Part shown: positions 23,988 to 30,510 of the stretch, one piece after another
Layout: every line of letters begins with the position of its first letter
Numbering within the stretch: the stretch's first letter is position 1
NCBI GenBank assembly: GCA_018607905.1
Contig: JABBAP010000015.1
Location: 1 to 61,385, forward strand
Reading direction: 5' to 3'
Length of the DNA stretch: 61,385 bases
DNA from: Paracoccaceae bacterium
GTDB taxonomy: Bacteria; Pseudomonadota; Alphaproteobacteria; Rhodobacterales; Rhodobacteraceae
Translations under genes and position numbers: made by a program
The notes under the pieces: model-generated
What the model was told of the DNA's origin: nothing
Database searches by the model: none
The model's input: the letters and a program-made list of their open reading frames with translations, nothing else

Positions 23988-24635
23988 TTAGATTTTAAAG
24001 AACGGTTGCAGCAAGCGTGGTAGCAGGCTGTTAAAGCGCAAAGGCGCATCTGTGGCCGCGATGCAAATGCAATCGGCATCCATGCTGGCGATGGGTTGAT
24101 GGTTTAGGTCCTCATTCGCGATTTCGAGGTCGCCACGGGCGAATTCGTCTACTTCATCCGCGAATGATCCCTGCAAAACCAAGGTCAATTCCATGCCGCG
24201 ATGGCCGTGATCGGGAACGGATTGCCCCGCTGGGATAAACAACAGGCGCGCCTGTGCTGTGTCGTTTGTCGGGATGATCGCTTGTTTGACGCCGCCGCCC
24301 AAGGATTTCCATTTCACCTTTTCCAGGTCGCCGCCCAGGTATTTTTGGATGGGTTCTGGCAACACGCCTTTTGGTCCCGGTTTTTCGATAACTGTGTCGC
24401 TGGATTTGATGCGGCCCAGCGTTGCCGCAAAGGCATCTGATTTCAACTCAACACTGTCGCATTCTTCCATGACGCAGGCGCCAACGGCCTCGTAGCTGCT
24501 GACAAGCGCGCGGCTTTCGTCCGACAGGGACAGGTGCGCGGCGACAACAATGTCAAAGGCTTCGGGCAGGGCACCAGCGGCGTAACCCATTGCCAATTGG
24601 TCGTTTAAAACGTGCTTCACGGTCATTCTATTCAC
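23988..24635 (-). CDS. chrR: ChrR-type anti-sigma factor with cupin domain; zinc-site cysteines replaced
   Basis: A 215-residue protein coupled to rpoE by a 4-base overlap. The N-terminal anti-sigma part resembles Rhodobacter ChrR (KHVLNDQLAMGYAAGALPEAF), but the zinc motif H-x3-C-x2-C reads HLSLSDES (codons at 24513-24536): both cysteines are serines. The C-terminal cupin keeps its metal ligands (DHGHRGMELTLVLQG and a later NHQP). In R. sphaeroides ChrR holds sigma-E inactive and releases it on singlet oxygen; zinc is bound by two histidines and two cysteines. The loss suggests altered metal binding or a changed sigma contact. Confidence 0.9.
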   Translation of the reverse strand: MNRMTVKHVLNDQLAMGYAAGALPEAFDIVVAAHLSLSDESRALVSSYEAVGACVMEECDSVELKSDAFAATLGRIKSSDTVIEKPGPKGVLPEPIQKYLGGDLEKVKWKSLGGGVKQAIIPTNDTAQARLLFIPAGQSVPDHGHRGMELTLVLQGSFADEVDEFARGDLEIANEDLNHQPIASMDADCICIAATDAPLRFNSLLPRLLQPFFKI

Positions 24636-25192
24636 TCACTTAAAGTCTGGCGGAGGCGGTTTAGCGCCAACCTAATGCGGGATTTGATTGTGCCAAGGGG
24701 TAGGCCGGTTTCTTGGGCCAATTCGGAATGTGTCAGGTCGCCAAAATAGGCGCGACGCACGATGTCGCGTTGCTTTTTCGGCAGCTGTTCGAGCGCCTTG
24801 GCGAGTTTTTGGGTTTCCTGCTGGAGCACCAAAGCATCAGAGGCCTCTGGCTCTGGTTCGGGGCCCCAAGCGAGGTCTTCTGGTTCAGGGCGCGCGGAGC
24901 GGCGAAAGGCATCAATTTTTTTGTTACGCGCAATGGTGAAAATCCAGGTGGCCGCTGAGGCGCGGGTTGGATCGAACAAATGCGCCTTGTGCCAAACCGT
25001 GACCATTGTTTCTTGGGCGCATTCTTCGGCCATGGTGGCGGACGCGCCAGATTTTATCAAGAACCCTTTGATGCGCGGGGCGAAGTGGGCAAACAATTCT
25101 GCAAAAGCAGTTTCGTCGCGCGTGTCGCGCACGCGTAAGATGTTGGCTGACCAATCTGGCTCAAGACACGATTGATTTTGGGCCCGTGCCAT
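24632..25192 (-). CDS. rpoE: ECF sigma factor RpoE (singlet-oxygen type, ECF11-like)
   Basis: A 186-residue sigma factor from ATG 25192 with AAGGA upstream; an in-frame ATG at 25288 would lie at the predicted transcription start and adds unrelated sequence. Region 2 shows AEECAQETMVTVWHKAHLFDP and ATWIFTIARNKKIDAFRR; region 4 shows LPKKQRDIVRRAYFGDLTHSELAQETGLPLGTIKSR. These closely follow R. sphaeroides RpoE, and the adjoining chrR supports ECF11. A promoter of the same type as that of the divergent operon lies about 95 bases upstream, indicating autoregulation. Confidence 0.95.
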   Translation of the reverse strand: MARAQNQSCLEPDWSANILRVRDTRDETAFAELFAHFAPRIKGFLIKSGASATMAEECAQETMVTVWHKAHLFDPTRASAATWIFTIARNKKIDAFRRSARPEPEDLAWGPEPEPEASDALVLQQETQKLAKALEQLPKKQRDIVRRAYFGDLTHSELAQETGLPLGTIKSRIRLALNRLRQTLSE

Positions 25193-25292
25193 TGGTTTCC
25201 TTAATTTTTTAGTTTTCGTAAGCGCACCATATCCTACACGCCACGGCGGCGCATTGGTTTTTTGCCAGGATATGTTTGCTTCGATCATGTGG

Positions 25293-25322
25293 GGGATACG
25301 GCGTGGGTTCGAAATTGGATCA
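25293..25322 (-). promoter_or_regulatory. RpoE-type promoter upstream of rpoE-chrR
   Basis: Read leftward, TGATCC (25317-25322) is followed by 18 bases and TATCCC (25293-25298). TGATCC is the -35 sequence of R. sphaeroides RpoE promoters. The predicted start (about 25286) leaves a leader of about 94 bases before the rpoE ATG. Confidence 0.75.
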
Positions 25323-25355
25323 CTGGGGGCAAAGTTTTTTTAGCAGTTGTTTTTG

Positions 25356-25385
25356 TGATCCATTCAATACGGCGAAACGTATCCT
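25356..25385 (+). promoter_or_regulatory. RpoE-type promoter of the amine oxidase - SDR operon
   Basis: TGATCC (25356-25361), an 18-base spacer and TATCCT (25380-25385) repeat the architecture of the divergent rpoE promoter. The ATG of the first gene is 27 bases past the -10, with AAGGA in between, so the leader is only about 20 bases. Confidence 0.78.
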
Positions 25386-25412: not shown

Positions 25413-26699
25413 ATGCCGTTTGAGTTTGCTCCGAGTGCCCCACTGAAAATCGCTGTAATCGGGGCAGGTGTCTCTGGCATGGGGGCGGCGCACTTGTTGT
25501 CAAAGGCGCATGATGTGACCCTATTTGAGGCCGAGAAACGGTTGGGCGGGCATGCGCGGACTGTTTTGGCAGGTAAAAATGGCGATCAGCCAGTTGATAC
25601 AGGGTTTATCGTTTTCAATTACGCGAATTACCCGCGTCTGACTGCGTTGTTCGAAGAATTGGACGTGCCCGTTGTCAAAAGCAAGATGAGCTTTGGGGTT
25701 TCGGCAGACGGGGGACGCGTGGAATATGCGCTCAACGATTTGGCGGCGCTGTTTGCGCAGAAAAGCAACATGGTGAACCCCAAGTTTTTGGGGATGCTGA
25801 TTGATATTATGCGGTTCAATTCCAAAGCGTTGAAGGCTTCCCAAGACCCGAGCGTGACGCTGGGCGAGTTGATGGATCGTCTTAAAATGGGCGAATGGTT
25901 TCAGAAATATTACCTGCTGCCGTTTTCCGGTGCGATTTGGTCGACGCCGCTGGAACAGATGTTGTCTTTCCCTGCGCAGGCGTTGACTCGGTTTTTCCAG
26001 AACCACAATCTGCTCGGCGTGTATGGGCAGCACCAGTGGTACACCGTTGAGGGTGGATCAATCGAATACGTCAAACGCATGGAGGCGGCGATGCGCAATC
26101 AGCGGTGTGATATCCGTTTAGGTGCCGATGTTGTCGGCGTGCGGCGCACTGGGCTGGGCGGCGAAGTGCGCTTGGCTGGTGGTGTATGGGAGCAGTTTGA
26201 TCGCATTGTGTTTGCCTGTCATTCGGATCAAGCGTTGAAAATGTTAGAAGACCCATCTGCCGATGAAAAGGCATTGCTGGGCGCGATCAAATATCAGAAC
26301 AACCGTGCGGTTTTGCACGCAGACCCCGCCGTGATGCCAAAGCGAAGGGCCTGTTGGGCAAGCTGGACCTATTCAACCGCGAAGCAAAATGTGTCTGATC
26401 CTGTGGGGATTACCTATTGGATGAACACGCTGCAGCCGATCCCAGAGGATGATTTGCTGCTGGGGTCATTGAACCCAAGTGTGAACATCAAGGACGAGCT
26501 GATCTACGAGGAAAGCAATTTCATGCACCCCGTGTTTGATCGGGCGGCCTTGGATGCGCAGACCAAGTTGAAGGCGTTACAGGGGCAGCGGAATACTTGG
26601 TTTTGTGGGGCGTATTTGCGCAATGGCTTTCACGAAGACGGCTATTCCAGCGGCGTAGATGTGGCGCAAGATATGGGGATGATTCCGCAATGGGCGTAG
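25413..26699 (+). CDS. FAD-dependent amine-oxidase-family oxidoreductase, RpoE target
   Basis: A 428-residue flavoprotein with an N-terminal Rossmann motif IAVIGAGVSGMGAA (about residue 13), FEAEKRLGGHARTV near 40 and a C-terminal FAD contact GAYLRNGFHEDGYSSGVDVAQ near 400. It belongs to the branch annotated as amine oxidase or 'cyclopropane/unsaturated fatty acid synthesis' protein, and corresponds by content and position to the first gene of the R. sphaeroides RpoE-regulated cluster RSP_1087-1091 (from memory). In that species the genes are linked to ChrR turnover and to fatty-acid modification. It is the first gene of a six-gene operon and overlaps the next by 10 bases. Confidence 0.88.
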   Translation: MPFEFAPSAPLKIAVIGAGVSGMGAAHLLSKAHDVTLFEAEKRLGGHARTVLAGKNGDQPVDTGFIVFNYANYPRLTALFEELDVPVVKSKMSFGVSADGGRVEYALNDLAALFAQKSNMVNPKFLGMLIDIMRFNSKALKASQDPSVTLGELMDRLKMGEWFQKYYLLPFSGAIWSTPLEQMLSFPAQALTRFFQNHNLLGVYGQHQWYTVEGGSIEYVKRMEAAMRNQRCDIRLGADVVGVRRTGLGGEVRLAGGVWEQFDRIVFACHSDQALKMLEDPSADEKALLGAIKYQNNRAVLHADPAVMPKRRACWASWTYSTAKQNVSDPVGITYWMNTLQPIPEDDLLLGSLNPSVNIKDELIYEESNFMHPVFDRAALDAQTKLKALQGQRNTWFCGAYLRNGFHEDGYSSGVDVAQDMGMIPQWA

Positions 26700-27457
26700 G
26701 ACCAGATCACATTTGCGGCCACACCTATCATGGTCGCCACGGCGCAATCAAAAACGCATTCCGCTACCGTGTGGATTACGTTTTGGCGGATTTATCCAAG
26801 GCTGACGATGGGCCAAGCCTGTTTTCACGCAACAAAGGAAATGTGACGGCGTTGCATGATGTGGATCATGGTGGGGCGGTCGGCGAAGGGCGCGGTTTGG
26901 ACTGGGTTCACAGCGTCCTGGCCGAACACGGATTTGAAGGGCTAACGCAGGGCCGCATATTGTTGTTGGCACAGCCCCGTGTGTGGGGGCATGTGTTCAA
27001 CCCTGTGAGTTTTTGGTTGGTGTATGACACGTCTGATATCTTGCGCATGGTGATCGCGGAGGTGAGCAATACCTATGGCGGGCGGCATTCCTATCTGTGT
27101 TATCACAAAGACCTGCGTCGGATTTCGCCTACGGATCGGTTGAAGGCGCGAAAGATGTTCCATGTGTCGCCGTTTCAACCCGTTGAGGGGCAATACACGT
27201 TTCGATTTGATGTGACGGAGAGCCATGTTGGCATCGTGATCGATTATCGCAGTGGTAACGATGGCGGCGTTTACGCGACCTTTCATGGGCGTCGTCAGAC
27301 CATGACCAACGGTTCAATTCTGCGCGCGGCGATTGCACGCCCCCTTGGATCGTTGCGGGTGTTGGCGTTGATCCATTGGCAGGCCGCGCGGTTGTGGTGG
27401 AAAGGCGCGGGGTTTCGCAATCCGCCTGCTGCACCTGAAACGGAGGTTTCATCTTGA
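26690..27457 (+). CDS. DUF1365 protein
   Basis: A 255-residue protein from ATG 26690. It opens with CGHTYHGRHGAIKNAFRYRVDYVLADL and carries LLAQPRVWGHVFNPVSFWLVYD near residue 100 and YLCYHKDLRRISPTDRLKARKMFHVSPFQP near 130, the pattern of DUF1365. The family nearly always neighbours an amine-oxidase-like flavoprotein, and often a cyclopropane synthase, suggesting action on membrane acyl chains; its chemistry is unknown. It sits second in the RpoE-driven operon. Confidence 0.88.
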   Translation: MGVGPDHICGHTYHGRHGAIKNAFRYRVDYVLADLSKADDGPSLFSRNKGNVTALHDVDHGGAVGEGRGLDWVHSVLAEHGFEGLTQGRILLLAQPRVWGHVFNPVSFWLVYDTSDILRMVIAEVSNTYGGRHSYLCYHKDLRRISPTDRLKARKMFHVSPFQPVEGQYTFRFDVTESHVGIVIDYRSGNDGGVYATFHGRRQTMTNGSILRAAIARPLGSLRVLALIHWQAARLWWKGAGFRNPPAAPETEVSS

Positions 27458-27987
27458 AGATTTTAAACACCGTTTTGGCGGTCGCGCTGTTTGCGCCCCT
27501 GTCCACAGGTGCCAATGGCCAAGCGGCCCCAAATGAGGTGAAAAAAGAGATTTCCGCACCGCAATTGCAGGGCAAGCACACGGCGCGGTATTGGTGGTTT
27601 CGGTTGTTCAATGCCGAGTTGTGGACCGCGAATTCTGGCGAATTTAGCTTTGATCAGGAATTCGCTTTGTCGATCAGCTATCTTTATCCGTTCACAAAGG
27701 AGCTTTTGGCGCGGACGTCCGTGGAGGATATCGCCCGCGTTGAAGGCGGAAAACCCGAGGATCATGCAAAGCTGGAAAAGCTGCTGATCGGGTGTTTGGT
27801 TGATGTGGACAAAGGCACGCGCATTACTGGGGTTGCGGAGTCTGCGAACAAAATTGCGATGTATGTGAACGGGCGCAAAAGCTGTACGATGTCCTATCCG
27901 AATGTGCGCAAACGGTTCTTTGGGATTTGGCTGGCGCCCACATCGCGCGATGCCAAAGGGGCGCGGCGTTTGCGCGGTAACGGCTAG
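27454..27987 (+). CDS. Chalcone-isomerase-like exported protein (TTG start)
   Basis: A 177-residue protein initiated at TTG 27454, supported by GGAGG seven bases upstream and by overlap with the DUF1365 stop; no ATG is available before the signal peptide MKILNTVLAVALFAPLSTGANG. The mature part (GKHTARYWWFRLFNAELWTANSGEF, then SISYLYPFTKELLARTSVEDI and SYPNVRKRFFGIWLAP at the end) resembles the Chalcone_3 / chalcone-isomerase-like family, which binds fatty-acid-like ligands in some members. Periplasmic location and co-transcription with lipid-type enzymes suggest a role in handling a modified acyl chain. The catalytic assignment is not supported. Confidence 0.75.
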   Translation: MKILNTVLAVALFAPLSTGANGQAAPNEVKKEISAPQLQGKHTARYWWFRLFNAELWTANSGEFSFDQEFALSISYLYPFTKELLARTSVEDIARVEGGKPEDHAKLEKLLIGCLVDVDKGTRITGVAESANKIAMYVNGRKSCTMSYPNVRKRFFGIWLAPTSRDAKGARRLRGNG

Positions 27988-29232
27988 ATGGTGCAGGGAC
28001 GCAATGTCGGGCTGCATCGGTATTCTACCTTTGCAGGGGTTTTAGCAGCGGCAGGTTTGCCGCTGTATATTCATGCGCCGAAATTTTATGTGGATCAATA
28101 TGATCTGTCGTTGACGATGATCGCATCGGCCTTGCTGGGGTTGCGGATGTTGGATTTCATTCAAGACCCTGTTTTGGGGTGGGTGGTTGATCATCTGGGC
28201 CAATGGCGCAGCGCGTTTGCAGGTGCCATGACGGCGCTGCTGGCGGGTGCGATGGTGGCGCTGTTTGCCGTGCCAGCGCCGATTGATCCATTGCTGTGGT
28301 TTATCGCCTGTTTGGCGGTTTTGTTCACCGCGTTCAGCGCGCTTTCGATCCTGTTTTACGCACGCGGCATCGCGAAGGGCGAAAAGTTGGGCGACGATGG
28401 GCATGTTCATTTGGCAGGGTGGCGCGAAAGCGGTGCGTTGATCGGGATTTGCCTCGCGGCAATTTTACCGACAATTTTTCTGAGCCTTGGATTTGGTGCG
28501 CCGATGGCGGCGTTTTCGATTGTTTTTGCGGTTGCCGCCGCTGTTGGTGCGGTGATGATGGCGCAGGAATGGCAGGGCAAAGCGGTTGTTGAACCGACGA
28601 ATATTCGGGCCTTGCTGGCGGATCCTGTTATCCGTCAATTGCTGGTGGTGGGGCTGTTGAATGCGGCCCCTGCGGCGGTGAGTTCGAGCCTGTTTTTGTT
28701 CTTTGTGGAATACCGTTTGGGCAGTGCGCAAAGTGCTGGGCCATTGTTGTTGCTGTTCTTTCTTTCTGCGGCGGCGAGCGTGCCGATTTGGGCGCGAATT
28801 TCCCATGTAAAGGGCGCAAAATGGACCTTGATGGCCGGCATGTTGATGGCGATTATCACCTTTAGCTTTGCGGTGACCTTGGGCGAGGGCGATGTCGTGC
28901 CATTTGCAGTTATTTGCCTGTTTTCGGGGGCGGCGCTGGGAGCGGATATGACCCTGTTGCCCGCAATGTTCAGCCAGCGCGTGAAGCTGGTGCATCGCGG
29001 TGGTGGACAGGCGTTTGGGCTGTGGAATTTCTGCGCGAAATTCACGCTGGCGTTGGCGGCGGTTACGGTTCTGCCTGTGTTGGACAACGCTGGGTTTTCA
29101 ACCCGCGAGGCGAACCCGCCGATGGTGCTTTTGGTTTTGACAATCACCTACGCGGTTGTGCCATCTGTTTTAAAAGTTTTAGCACTGGCCGTTCTGTATT
29201 GGACGCCAATCGAGGAGGTGCAGCATGTCTGA
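27988..29232 (+). CDS. GPH/MFS-type transporter (MFS_2)
   Basis: A 414-residue polytopic membrane protein with about 12 helices. Its ATG directly follows the preceding TAG. The N-terminal GLPLYIHAPKFYVDQYDLSL and the loop RMLDFIQDPVLGWVVDHLGQWR match the glycoside-pentoside-hexuronide:cation symporter (MFS_2) family; the same family also includes lipid transporters related to MFSD2A. As the fourth gene of the RpoE operon it may move a lipid or a small oxidised product across the membrane, which is inference. Confidence 0.85.
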   Translation: MVQGRNVGLHRYSTFAGVLAAAGLPLYIHAPKFYVDQYDLSLTMIASALLGLRMLDFIQDPVLGWVVDHLGQWRSAFAGAMTALLAGAMVALFAVPAPIDPLLWFIACLAVLFTAFSALSILFYARGIAKGEKLGDDGHVHLAGWRESGALIGICLAAILPTIFLSLGFGAPMAAFSIVFAVAAAVGAVMMAQEWQGKAVVEPTNIRALLADPVIRQLLVVGLLNAAPAAVSSSLFLFFVEYRLGSAQSAGPLLLLFFLSAAASVPIWARISHVKGAKWTLMAGMLMAIITFSFAVTLGEGDVVPFAVICLFSGAALGADMTLLPAMFSQRVKLVHRGGGQAFGLWNFCAKFTLALAAVTVLPVLDNAGFSTREANPPMVLLVLTITYAVVPSVLKVLALAVLYWTPIEEVQHV

Positions 29233-29782
29233 TCTAGTACTTTTTGCGCTGGGCGGCGCGGTGGTTTTTGCTGGCTTTTTGCTGGCGTTTCGCCTCACTG
29301 GATTTAAGTCGCAGACCCCTGCGGATTACAGCGATGGGCCCGTGCTCGATATCCAAGAGCATCTGAATGGGCCGCTGATTTGTGAAGGTGTTTTGTACGG
29401 GCCAACAGGGCGTGTGGTATCGCGTTTTGTGGCGGATATGCATGGCACGTGGGATGGGAACAAAGGGCACCTGACGGAGGATTTCCGCTATGACAGCGGA
29501 ACAGTGCAAAAACGCGAGTGGTTTTTGACGGCAAAAGACGGTGGCGCATTTGATGCAAAGGCCCCTGACGTTGTGGGGACGGGGCGGGGCGTTCAGCTTG
29601 GGTCTGCGATCAATTTGAAATACCGTATTATGCTGGCAGAAACTGCTGGTGGGCACACGTTGGATGTGACTGATTGGATGTACTTGTTGGACAACGGCAC
29701 AATCGTGAACCGTAGCCAGATGCGCAAGTTCGGGATCAAGGTGGCAGAGCTGGTGGCGACTATCCGCAAGGCTGATGTGTGA
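29225..29782 (+). CDS. DUF3833 protein
   Basis: A 185-residue protein starting at ATG 29225, eight bases inside the transporter gene. An N-terminal hydrophobic helix (LVLFALGGAVVFAGFLLAF) anchors it. The body, with VLDIQEHLNGPLICEGVLYGPTGRVVSRFV and FRYDSGTVQKREWFLT, is the lipocalin-like DUF3833 family, of unknown function. It is consistently found in the same clusters as DUF1365 and SDR genes. Confidence 0.85.
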   Translation: MSDLVLFALGGAVVFAGFLLAFRLTGFKSQTPADYSDGPVLDIQEHLNGPLICEGVLYGPTGRVVSRFVADMHGTWDGNKGHLTEDFRYDSGTVQKREWFLTAKDGGAFDAKAPDVVGTGRGVQLGSAINLKYRIMLAETAGGHTLDVTDWMYLLDNGTIVNRSQMRKFGIKVAELVATIRKADV

Positions 29783-30510
29783 TGCAAGCGGGTTCGCGAT
29801 ACTGGCTGGTTGGCGCATCTGAGGGGCTAGGCCGTGCCTTGGCGATTAAGCTATCAGAGGCGGGTGTCGAGTTGGCATTAAGTGCGCGAAGTGCTGAGCG
29901 TTTGCAGGAACTGGCCGATGTGTTGCCAAGTGGTGCGTCTGTGCATCCCGTCGATGTGTCCGATTTAGCGGCGGTGAAAGATGCAGCGACGGATGTGGGG
30001 CAGATTGACGGCGTGATTTACGCGGCGGGTGTGTACTGGCCGATGGAGGCGCGCGCGTGGGATGCAGAGGCGGTTGAAGCCATGTGTGATATCAATTTCA
30101 CGGGTGCTGCGCGGGTTTTGGGTGAATGTGTTCCTGCGATGATTGAACGAGATGCGGGGCATGTGGTTTTGGTTGGCAGCCTGTCAGGGTTTCGCGGTTT
30201 GCCGGGCGCAATTGGCTACGGTGCGAGCAAGGCTGGCCTGATGCATTTGGCGGAAAATCTGCGGGCGGAATTGCACGCAACGGGGGTGAAGGTTCAACTG
30301 GTGAACCCGGGTTTCATCAAGACGCGGTTGACCCAGAAAAATGCGTTCAAGATGCCATTTCTGCTGGAGGCTGACGCCGCCGCAGACAATGTGATCGCGG
30401 CGATGCGATCCACCCGTTTCCAGAGCAACTTTCCACGGGTGTTTTCATGGCTGTTTCGTGGCGCCAATTTTTTGCCCGCTTGGGCGTATTATCGGCTGTT
30501 TGGACGTTAG
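29782..30510 (+). CDS. Short-chain dehydrogenase/reductase
   Basis: A 242-residue classical SDR beginning at ATG 29782 inside the DUF3833 stop (a GTG one codon earlier is the alternative). VGASEGLGRALA binds the cofactor near residue 10, YAAGV near 75, the catalytic serine lies in GSLSGFRG near 133, and the YxxxK pair in GYGASKAG near 146. It is the last gene of the RpoE operon. The substrate may be an acyl or aldehyde product of lipid oxidation. Its TAG overlaps the TAA of the next, convergent gene (TTAG at 30507-30510). Confidence 0.9.
   Translation: MQAGSRYWLVGASEGLGRALAIKLSEAGVELALSARSAERLQELADVLPSGASVHPVDVSDLAAVKDAATDVGQIDGVIYAAGVYWPMEARAWDAEAVEAMCDINFTGAARVLGECVPAMIERDAGHVVLVGSLSGFRGLPGAIGYGASKAGLMHLAENLRAELHATGVKVQLVNPGFIKTRLTQKNAFKMPFLLEADAAADNVIAAMRSTRFQSNFPRVFSWLFRGANFLPAWAYYRLFGR

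Follow-up and report, generated by a model that had tools for sequence, protein, structure and literature searches.

A divergent ECF11 promoter pair in a Paracoccaceae bacterium, with an in-frame ATG at the predicted rpoE transcript start and a ChrR lacking three of four anti-sigma zinc ligands

A well-studied RpoE-ChrR system is that of R. sphaeroides, where an RpoE promoter is reported on each side of the locus (PMC3818230), furan fatty acids are described as promoting the breakdown of ChrR (PMC7380195), and zinc in the ChrR anti-sigma domain, held by His6, His31, Cys35 and Cys38, is reported to be required to inhibit RpoE (PMC6852236). The ECF11 promoter consensus is given as TGATCC-N16-CGTA in Pseudomonas (PMC5507510), as TGATCC with CGTATT or CGTAAT in Shewanella (PMC4336711), and as TGATCC-N15-GCGTA for R. 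sphaeroides Pos19 (PMC5036791). An ECF sigma factor with a ChrR-type anti-sigma factor is also found in the SigR/SigR′/RsrA system of Streptomyces, in which an autoregulated promoter precedes an upstream in-frame ATG; the extended form, SigR′, is reported to be degraded by Clp proteases, and a second promoter gives a short, stable form (PMC5472188, PMC4921905).

We analyzed a 61,385 bp stretch of a Paracoccaceae genome (contig JABBAP010000015.1; hereafter the window), in which a gene encoding sigma regions 2 and 4 adjoins a gene for a ChrR-family anti-sigma factor, with a TGATCC-N16-CGTA promoter 5′ of rpoE (Table 1). The circuit is the known ECF11 RpoE-ChrR/furan-fatty-acid locus, sharing gene order, divergent promoters, motif, and feedback operon with R. 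sphaeroides RSP1091-1087 as described in PMC3818230 and PMC7380195. It differs from R. sphaeroides in having a sixth gene in the rightward operon, in carrying an in-frame ATG where rpoE transcription is predicted to start (the near-identical locus L187 has none), and in a ChrR that lacks three of the four anti-sigma zinc ligands. An earlier note on this DNA had proposed a six-gene rightward operon, and six same-strand open reading frames (25413-30510) are indeed present there, overlapping or abutting one another. The sixth gene was found in four of the 43 relatives that have ufaO and the MFS gene (L012, L013, L014, and L065).

Table 1. Features of the rpoE-chrR/ufaD locus, in window coordinates.
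Feature	Coordinates	Strand	Basis
chrR, anti-sigma factor	23988..24626	-	TIGR02451, 207 bits (cut-off 124.5)
rpoE, ECF sigma factor, long form of 218 residues	24632..25288	-	PF04542/PF04545; best solved relative 2q1z
Internal in-frame ATG, putative start of the 186-residue short form	25190..25192	-	sequence
32-codon in-frame N-terminal RpoE extension, open, predicted disordered	25193..25288	-	sequence and AlphaFold2
AAGGA, Shine-Dalgarno-like, before the internal start	25198..25202	-	sequence, energy -5.1
ATG with its A as 9th base after CGTA; putative leaderless start codon of rpoE at the predicted transcript start	25286..25288	-	motif distance, conservation
-10 core CGTA, rpoE promoter, 16-base spacer	25297..25300	-	conservation and published consensus
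-35 TGATCC, rpoE promoter	25317..25322	-	motif and conservation in relatives
-35 TGATCC, ufaD-operon promoter	25356..25361	+	motif and conservation
-10 core CGTA, ufaD-operon promoter, 16-base spacer	25378..25381	+	conservation
ufaD homologue, flavin amine oxidoreductase, RSP1091-like	25413..26699	+	domain match; function by homology (PMC7380195)
ufaO homologue, DUF1365, RSP1090-like	26597..27457	+	domain match; longest ORF, real start probably later
Sixth gene, 177 residues, weakly chalcone-isomerase-like	27454..27987	+	PF16036, E 0.012, below cut-off
MFS_2 transporter, RSP1089-like by order	27988..29232	+	domain match
DUF3833 protein, RSP1088-like by order	29225..29782	+	domain match
Short-chain dehydrogenase, RSP1087-like by order	29779..30510	+	domain match

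The gap between rpoE and the amine-oxidase gene contains TGATCC-N18-TATCC in both directions, as the earlier note reported, and with the letters it gave (TATCCC and TATCCT): TGATCCAATTTCGAACCCACGCCGTATCC on the minus strand at 25322..25294, on the rpoE side, and TGATCCATTCAATACGGCGAAACGTATCC on the plus strand at 25356..25384, on the ufaD side. These two matches in the window compare with 0.03 expected (100 dinucleotide shuffles, spacer 17–19), and none of the 100 shuffles had two. The spacers had been called identical, which holds for their length (18 bases) but not for their sequence. We compared the locus with those of 80 fetched relatives of the window RpoE, giving 81 loci with the window itself. 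TGATCC-N16-CGTA is exact on the rpoE side in 75 of the 80, with one mismatch in four and two mismatches in one; on the ufa side it is exact in 27, with one mismatch in 39 and two in 12, and is absent from two relatives, both of which gave no ufaD or ufaO match. The proposal that one ECF sigma factor acts on its own gene and on the rightward operon is thus backed by homology and conservation, although the phrase 'direct sequence evidence' overstated a control that is read from those two sources.

The -10 element had been taken as TATCC, a boundary that does not stand. At sites with no more than one mismatch, CGTA is invariant on both the rpoE side (79/79) and the ufa side (66/66), base 7 of the rpoE-side motif is a purine in all 79, and the three bases after CGTA vary; TATCC is therefore the TA of CGTA plus variable bases. 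Read from these alignments, the RpoE promoter code is TGATCCR-N15-CGTA, as published for other ECF11 factors. That matched promoters with a -10 of TATCC form a lineage-specific code is highly improbable. Both window sites end in TATCC, and early R. sphaeroides papers reportedly used this register too, with a -10 of TAAGA; however, TCC directly follows CGTA at only two of the 79 rpoE-side and one of the 66 ufa-side promoters. Moreover, a search of the whole genome for TGATCC-N17-19-TATCC, as the earlier note had suggested, returned 11 matches in 3.17 Mb, of which the nine outside the window all lack CGTA; six matches have the 18-base spacer, four of these are also without CGTA, and only the two window sites carry it.

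Nor are matched promoters the rule. Of the relatives, 78 have ufaD or ufaO next to rpoE (ufaD being the nearest found in 52 and ufaO in 26); in these, an exact -35 TGATCC is present on the rpoE side in 74 but on the ufa side in 27, and on both sides in 25. On the ufa side the first two bases of the -35 are variable (TAATCC in 18, TCATCC in 15, plus others), so that the matched pair in the window represents one state among several.

Elsewhere in this genome a photolyase gene, with a CMAS-family methyltransferase gene (a ufaM candidate) 76 nt behind it, follows a TGATCC-N16-CGTA site, and the ECF11 core regulon (ufaD, ufaO, photolyase, CMAS) is present with the motif. The whole furan-fatty-acid pathway known from R. 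sphaeroides (PMC7380195) would then be under RpoE control. There are 25 genome matches to TGATCC-N15-17-CGTA, including 14 at N16, seven of which precede a possible transcript (rpoE, ufaD, photolyase, a histidine kinase, a TPR protein, a 65-residue ORF, and a possible small RNA) while the other seven lie inside longer ORFs. The reversed pattern has three matches, an unfair control because it contains CTAG, a rare tetranucleotide. The histidine kinase gene begins 40 nt downstream of an exact RpoE-type promoter (L153:3866, minus strand; contig C8 near 94840). The possible RpoE-dependent small RNA (L153:9420-9536, minus strand; C8 near 100518) has no Rfam match and consists of an RpoE-type promoter between two genes followed by ~80 nt that end in a strong hairpin (z -3.45). 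The reaction-centre family PF00124 has no match in this genome, which is 95.9% complete. Sigma70_r1_2 (PF00140) also has no match, versus matches in 10 of 14 control genomes, and the one RpoH-like match is below cut-off; the draft may lack the contigs with these genes.

A point absent from the earlier note is that the first in-frame ATG of rpoE coincides with the predicted start of its transcript. An ATG lies exactly 8 nt after the rpoE-side CGTA in 79 of the 81 loci, and at 78 loci it is in the rpoE frame with no stop; as exceptions, L064 has it in frame but at 9, in L072 the ATG at 8 is out of frame, and L051 has no ATG. The stretches from CGTA to the sigma core vary in length and keep the frame, with the same remainder in 79/81, and they are open in the rpoE frame at 75 of the 81 loci, compared with 9 and 13 for the other two frames. 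The arrangement is present in 78 of the 80 relatives versus a mean of 0.77 and a maximum of 4 in dinucleotide shuffles of the same stretches, although these do not amount to 80 independent events because the loci are related.

The constant distance from CGTA would also be seen if the ATG were part of the promoter, a preferred initially transcribed sequence unrelated to translation. This is very improbable, as divergent ufa promoters of the same sigma factor have an ATG at offset 8 in only 4 of 77 cases, the photolyase promoters of relatives (no more than one mismatch) have it at 8 in 1 of 10, with one more at 9, and the rpoE frame is kept open. The photolyase gene of this genome has CGTA-N8-ATG (L152:4835, minus strand; C16 near 118334). 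It was considered as a second leaderless RpoE target and dropped, since the spacing is unconserved among 30 photolyase loci (29 of them in other genomes): a promoter with no more than one mismatch is present at 10, the ATG is at 8 only in this genome, and L210, with a mismatch in its -10, has it at 9.

The ufa-side promoters offer another view of where transcription may begin. Of 78 such promoters, 49 have A and 59 a purine at position 9 after CGTA, and 49 have a pyrimidine at position 8. Because A is also frequent at position 10 (45/78), these promoters do not fix the start to a single base, and the ufaD promoter of the window itself carries G at position 9 and A at position 7. In the rpoE promoters, position 8 is a C or T at 80 of the 81 loci, and the A of the ATG occupies position 9. 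The simplest reading is that initiation occurs on this A, the 9th base after CGTA, give or take a base or two. None of the 81 loci has a Shine-Dalgarno sequence of -6 kcal or better before this ATG. Conservation of the ATG at offset 8, together with the initiator signature at the sister promoter, suggests that the self-made rpoE mRNA is probably leaderless, its start position following from motif distance and that signature. It would resemble other alphaproteobacterial leaderless mRNAs, such as the 171 described in S. meliloti (PMC3616915), in having its AUG at the 5′ end. In the literature searched we found no report of a leaderless rpoE or ECF11 start, and more may be known in print.

Translation from this ATG would give a 218-residue RpoE and from the internal ATG, the only in-frame start in that part of the window gene, one of 186 residues. 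An internal in-frame start is present in 80 of the 81 loci, L063 being the exception. A conserved Shine-Dalgarno sequence before it was considered and set aside: the mean energy (-5.9) is only slightly stronger than that of an out-of-frame control (-4.7), and -6 or better is reached in 28/81 versus 27/81 loci. The extension has a dN/dS of 0.64 compared with 0.06 for the core (20 independent pairs), so that purifying selection on its peptide is weak at best; differences at the three codon positions number 158, 168, and 195. A structured extension was likewise rejected, as an AlphaFold2 model of RpoE with the extension (pTM 0.45, 28 sequences) has no secondary structure there and pLDDT below 50 for residues 1–10 and 12–41. 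Because the extension is near-neutral by dN/dS and predicted to be disordered, it is the start, the open state, and the frame that are kept rather than the peptide. Of 79 extensions in the family, 73 have F, L, M, I, or Y as their second residue; we do not propose a hydrophobic-second-residue degron, many second residues being non-hydrophobic in other families.

The arrangement recurs beyond the family. Among 30 further loci of the order the ATG is at 8 in 25 and at 9, 11, and 14 in one each; one has no ATG and one no promoter. From other families of the class we examined 85 of 146 matching genomes (25 + 60 loci, mostly the better-scoring), in which a promoter with no more than one mismatch lies within 400 nt in 58 and is lacking in 27. 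Among these examined genomes an in-frame, open ATG at offset 6–12, mostly 9, follows the promoter at 32 of the 58 loci, in 20 of 36 families, versus a mean of 0.98 and a maximum of 6 in 1000 shuffles, and ATGs at offsets 6–12 are in frame in 33 cases versus out of frame in four. The recurrence in Alphaproteobacteria is plain from these counts, with 26 of the 58 promoter-bearing loci lacking the arrangement. In other classes of the phylum (40 of 51 matches examined) it is present at 4 of 21 promoter loci, with a ratio of in frame to out of frame of 4:5 and hence no enrichment. L158 and the R. sphaeroides-like loci L187-L189 have no such ATG. The best member of the L187-L189 genus shares 98% identity with the solved chain 2q1z, which we take, on the basis of an ECF11 review, to be R. 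sphaeroides RpoE, and L157 in this genus has an ATG at 14. Of three public plasmid records examined, two start rpoE 75 or 107 nt after CGTA despite an in-frame ATG at 8 or 9.

ChrR of the window has V-H-S-S in place of the anti-sigma zinc ligands H-H-C-C, and the motif H-x24-H-x3-C-x2-C is accordingly absent, whereas the cupin ligands H-H-E-H are kept. In an alignment of 80 ChrR proteins (the window and 79 others, L055 having given no chrR match) H-H-C-C is kept in 73, each of the other seven lacks both cysteines, and the cupin ligands are kept in 79. A tree, in which some rows are long-branched, places the losses as two changes, one in L051 and one in a supported group of six comprising the window, two Amylibacter, Neptunicoccus, one MAG, and HTCC2255. 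No report of a zinc-less ChrR was found in a literature search. Non-zinc class I anti-sigma domains also lack H-x3-C-x2-C (PMC7406223), but here the loss is within an otherwise zinc-binding ECF11 ChrR that keeps its cupin metal site. Because zinc-free relatives of the fold are described in other groups (PMC7406223), the window domain may hold without zinc; the alternative is a de-repressed sigma factor in this lineage. A review describes what the anti-sigma zinc does in the response to singlet oxygen as unknown (PMC6852236), and a peptide study proposes that it takes part in sensing (PMC6432622).

We consider it quite probable that this is an ECF11 self-amplifying promoter pair in which a leaderless self-made rpoE mRNA yields a long RpoE and an internal start yields a short form. 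Freed RpoE would transcribe rpoE-chrR leftward and the ufaD operon rightward, and the ufaD and ufaO homologues, with ufaM elsewhere, would make furan fatty acids. RpoE would start its own transcript about nine bases after CGTA, on the A of the in-frame ATG, and this leaderless mRNA would yield the 218-residue protein, 32 residues of which are the extension. The internal start (ATG at 25192, with AAGGA before it) could give the 186-residue form from the self-made or any longer transcript. The sequences show directly that the promoter is conserved and that the ATG keeps its place and open frame and recurs across Alphaproteobacteria; the transcript start, leaderless translation, and the two RpoE forms are inferred.

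It is unlikely, though still to be weighed, that the short RpoE alone is functional, the ATG at the transcript start, where some ribosomes would initiate, being kept in frame merely to avoid a clash with the Shine-Dalgarno-led internal start and the extension being neutral baggage. Such a view would fit the near-neutral extension sequence, the R. sphaeroides-like loci that work without this ATG, and the internal start present in all loci but one. However, avoidance would be served by loss of the ATG, yet 79 of 81 loci keep it at one precise offset, it is met again in 20 of 36 other families, and L063 has no internal start. We propose a division between two RpoE forms akin to that in Streptomyces; a leaderless, Shine-Dalgarno-independent mode of translation alone would also fit and needs no peptide function. 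More speculatively, the long form may differ in stability or activity, like Streptomyces SigR′. As in that system an upstream in-frame start is fed by an autoregulated promoter, but in the window the ATG is at the very 5′ end of the predicted transcript, and the parallel is drawn from sequence alone.

A broader interpretation, possible but less likely than not, is that alphaproteobacterial ECF11 factors have an ancient isoform switch, convergent with Streptomyces SigR′, between a long, leaderless-translated form made under stress and a basal short form. Its loss from R. sphaeroides and close relatives would account for its having gone unnoticed, and the anti-sigma zinc site, being incomplete in the window lineage, could not be the singlet-oxygen sensor there.

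The promoter pair was already known, and the interest for specialists is in the probable leaderless rpoE start and the zinc-less ChrR. The lineage with this ChrR offers a natural test of what the anti-sigma zinc does in the response to singlet oxygen. Should the leaderless start prove true, some public records place the rpoE start codon wrongly, and a large part of the Alphaproteobacteria would have a second form of a textbook stress sigma factor, induced by the factor itself, possibly a second SigR′-like case.
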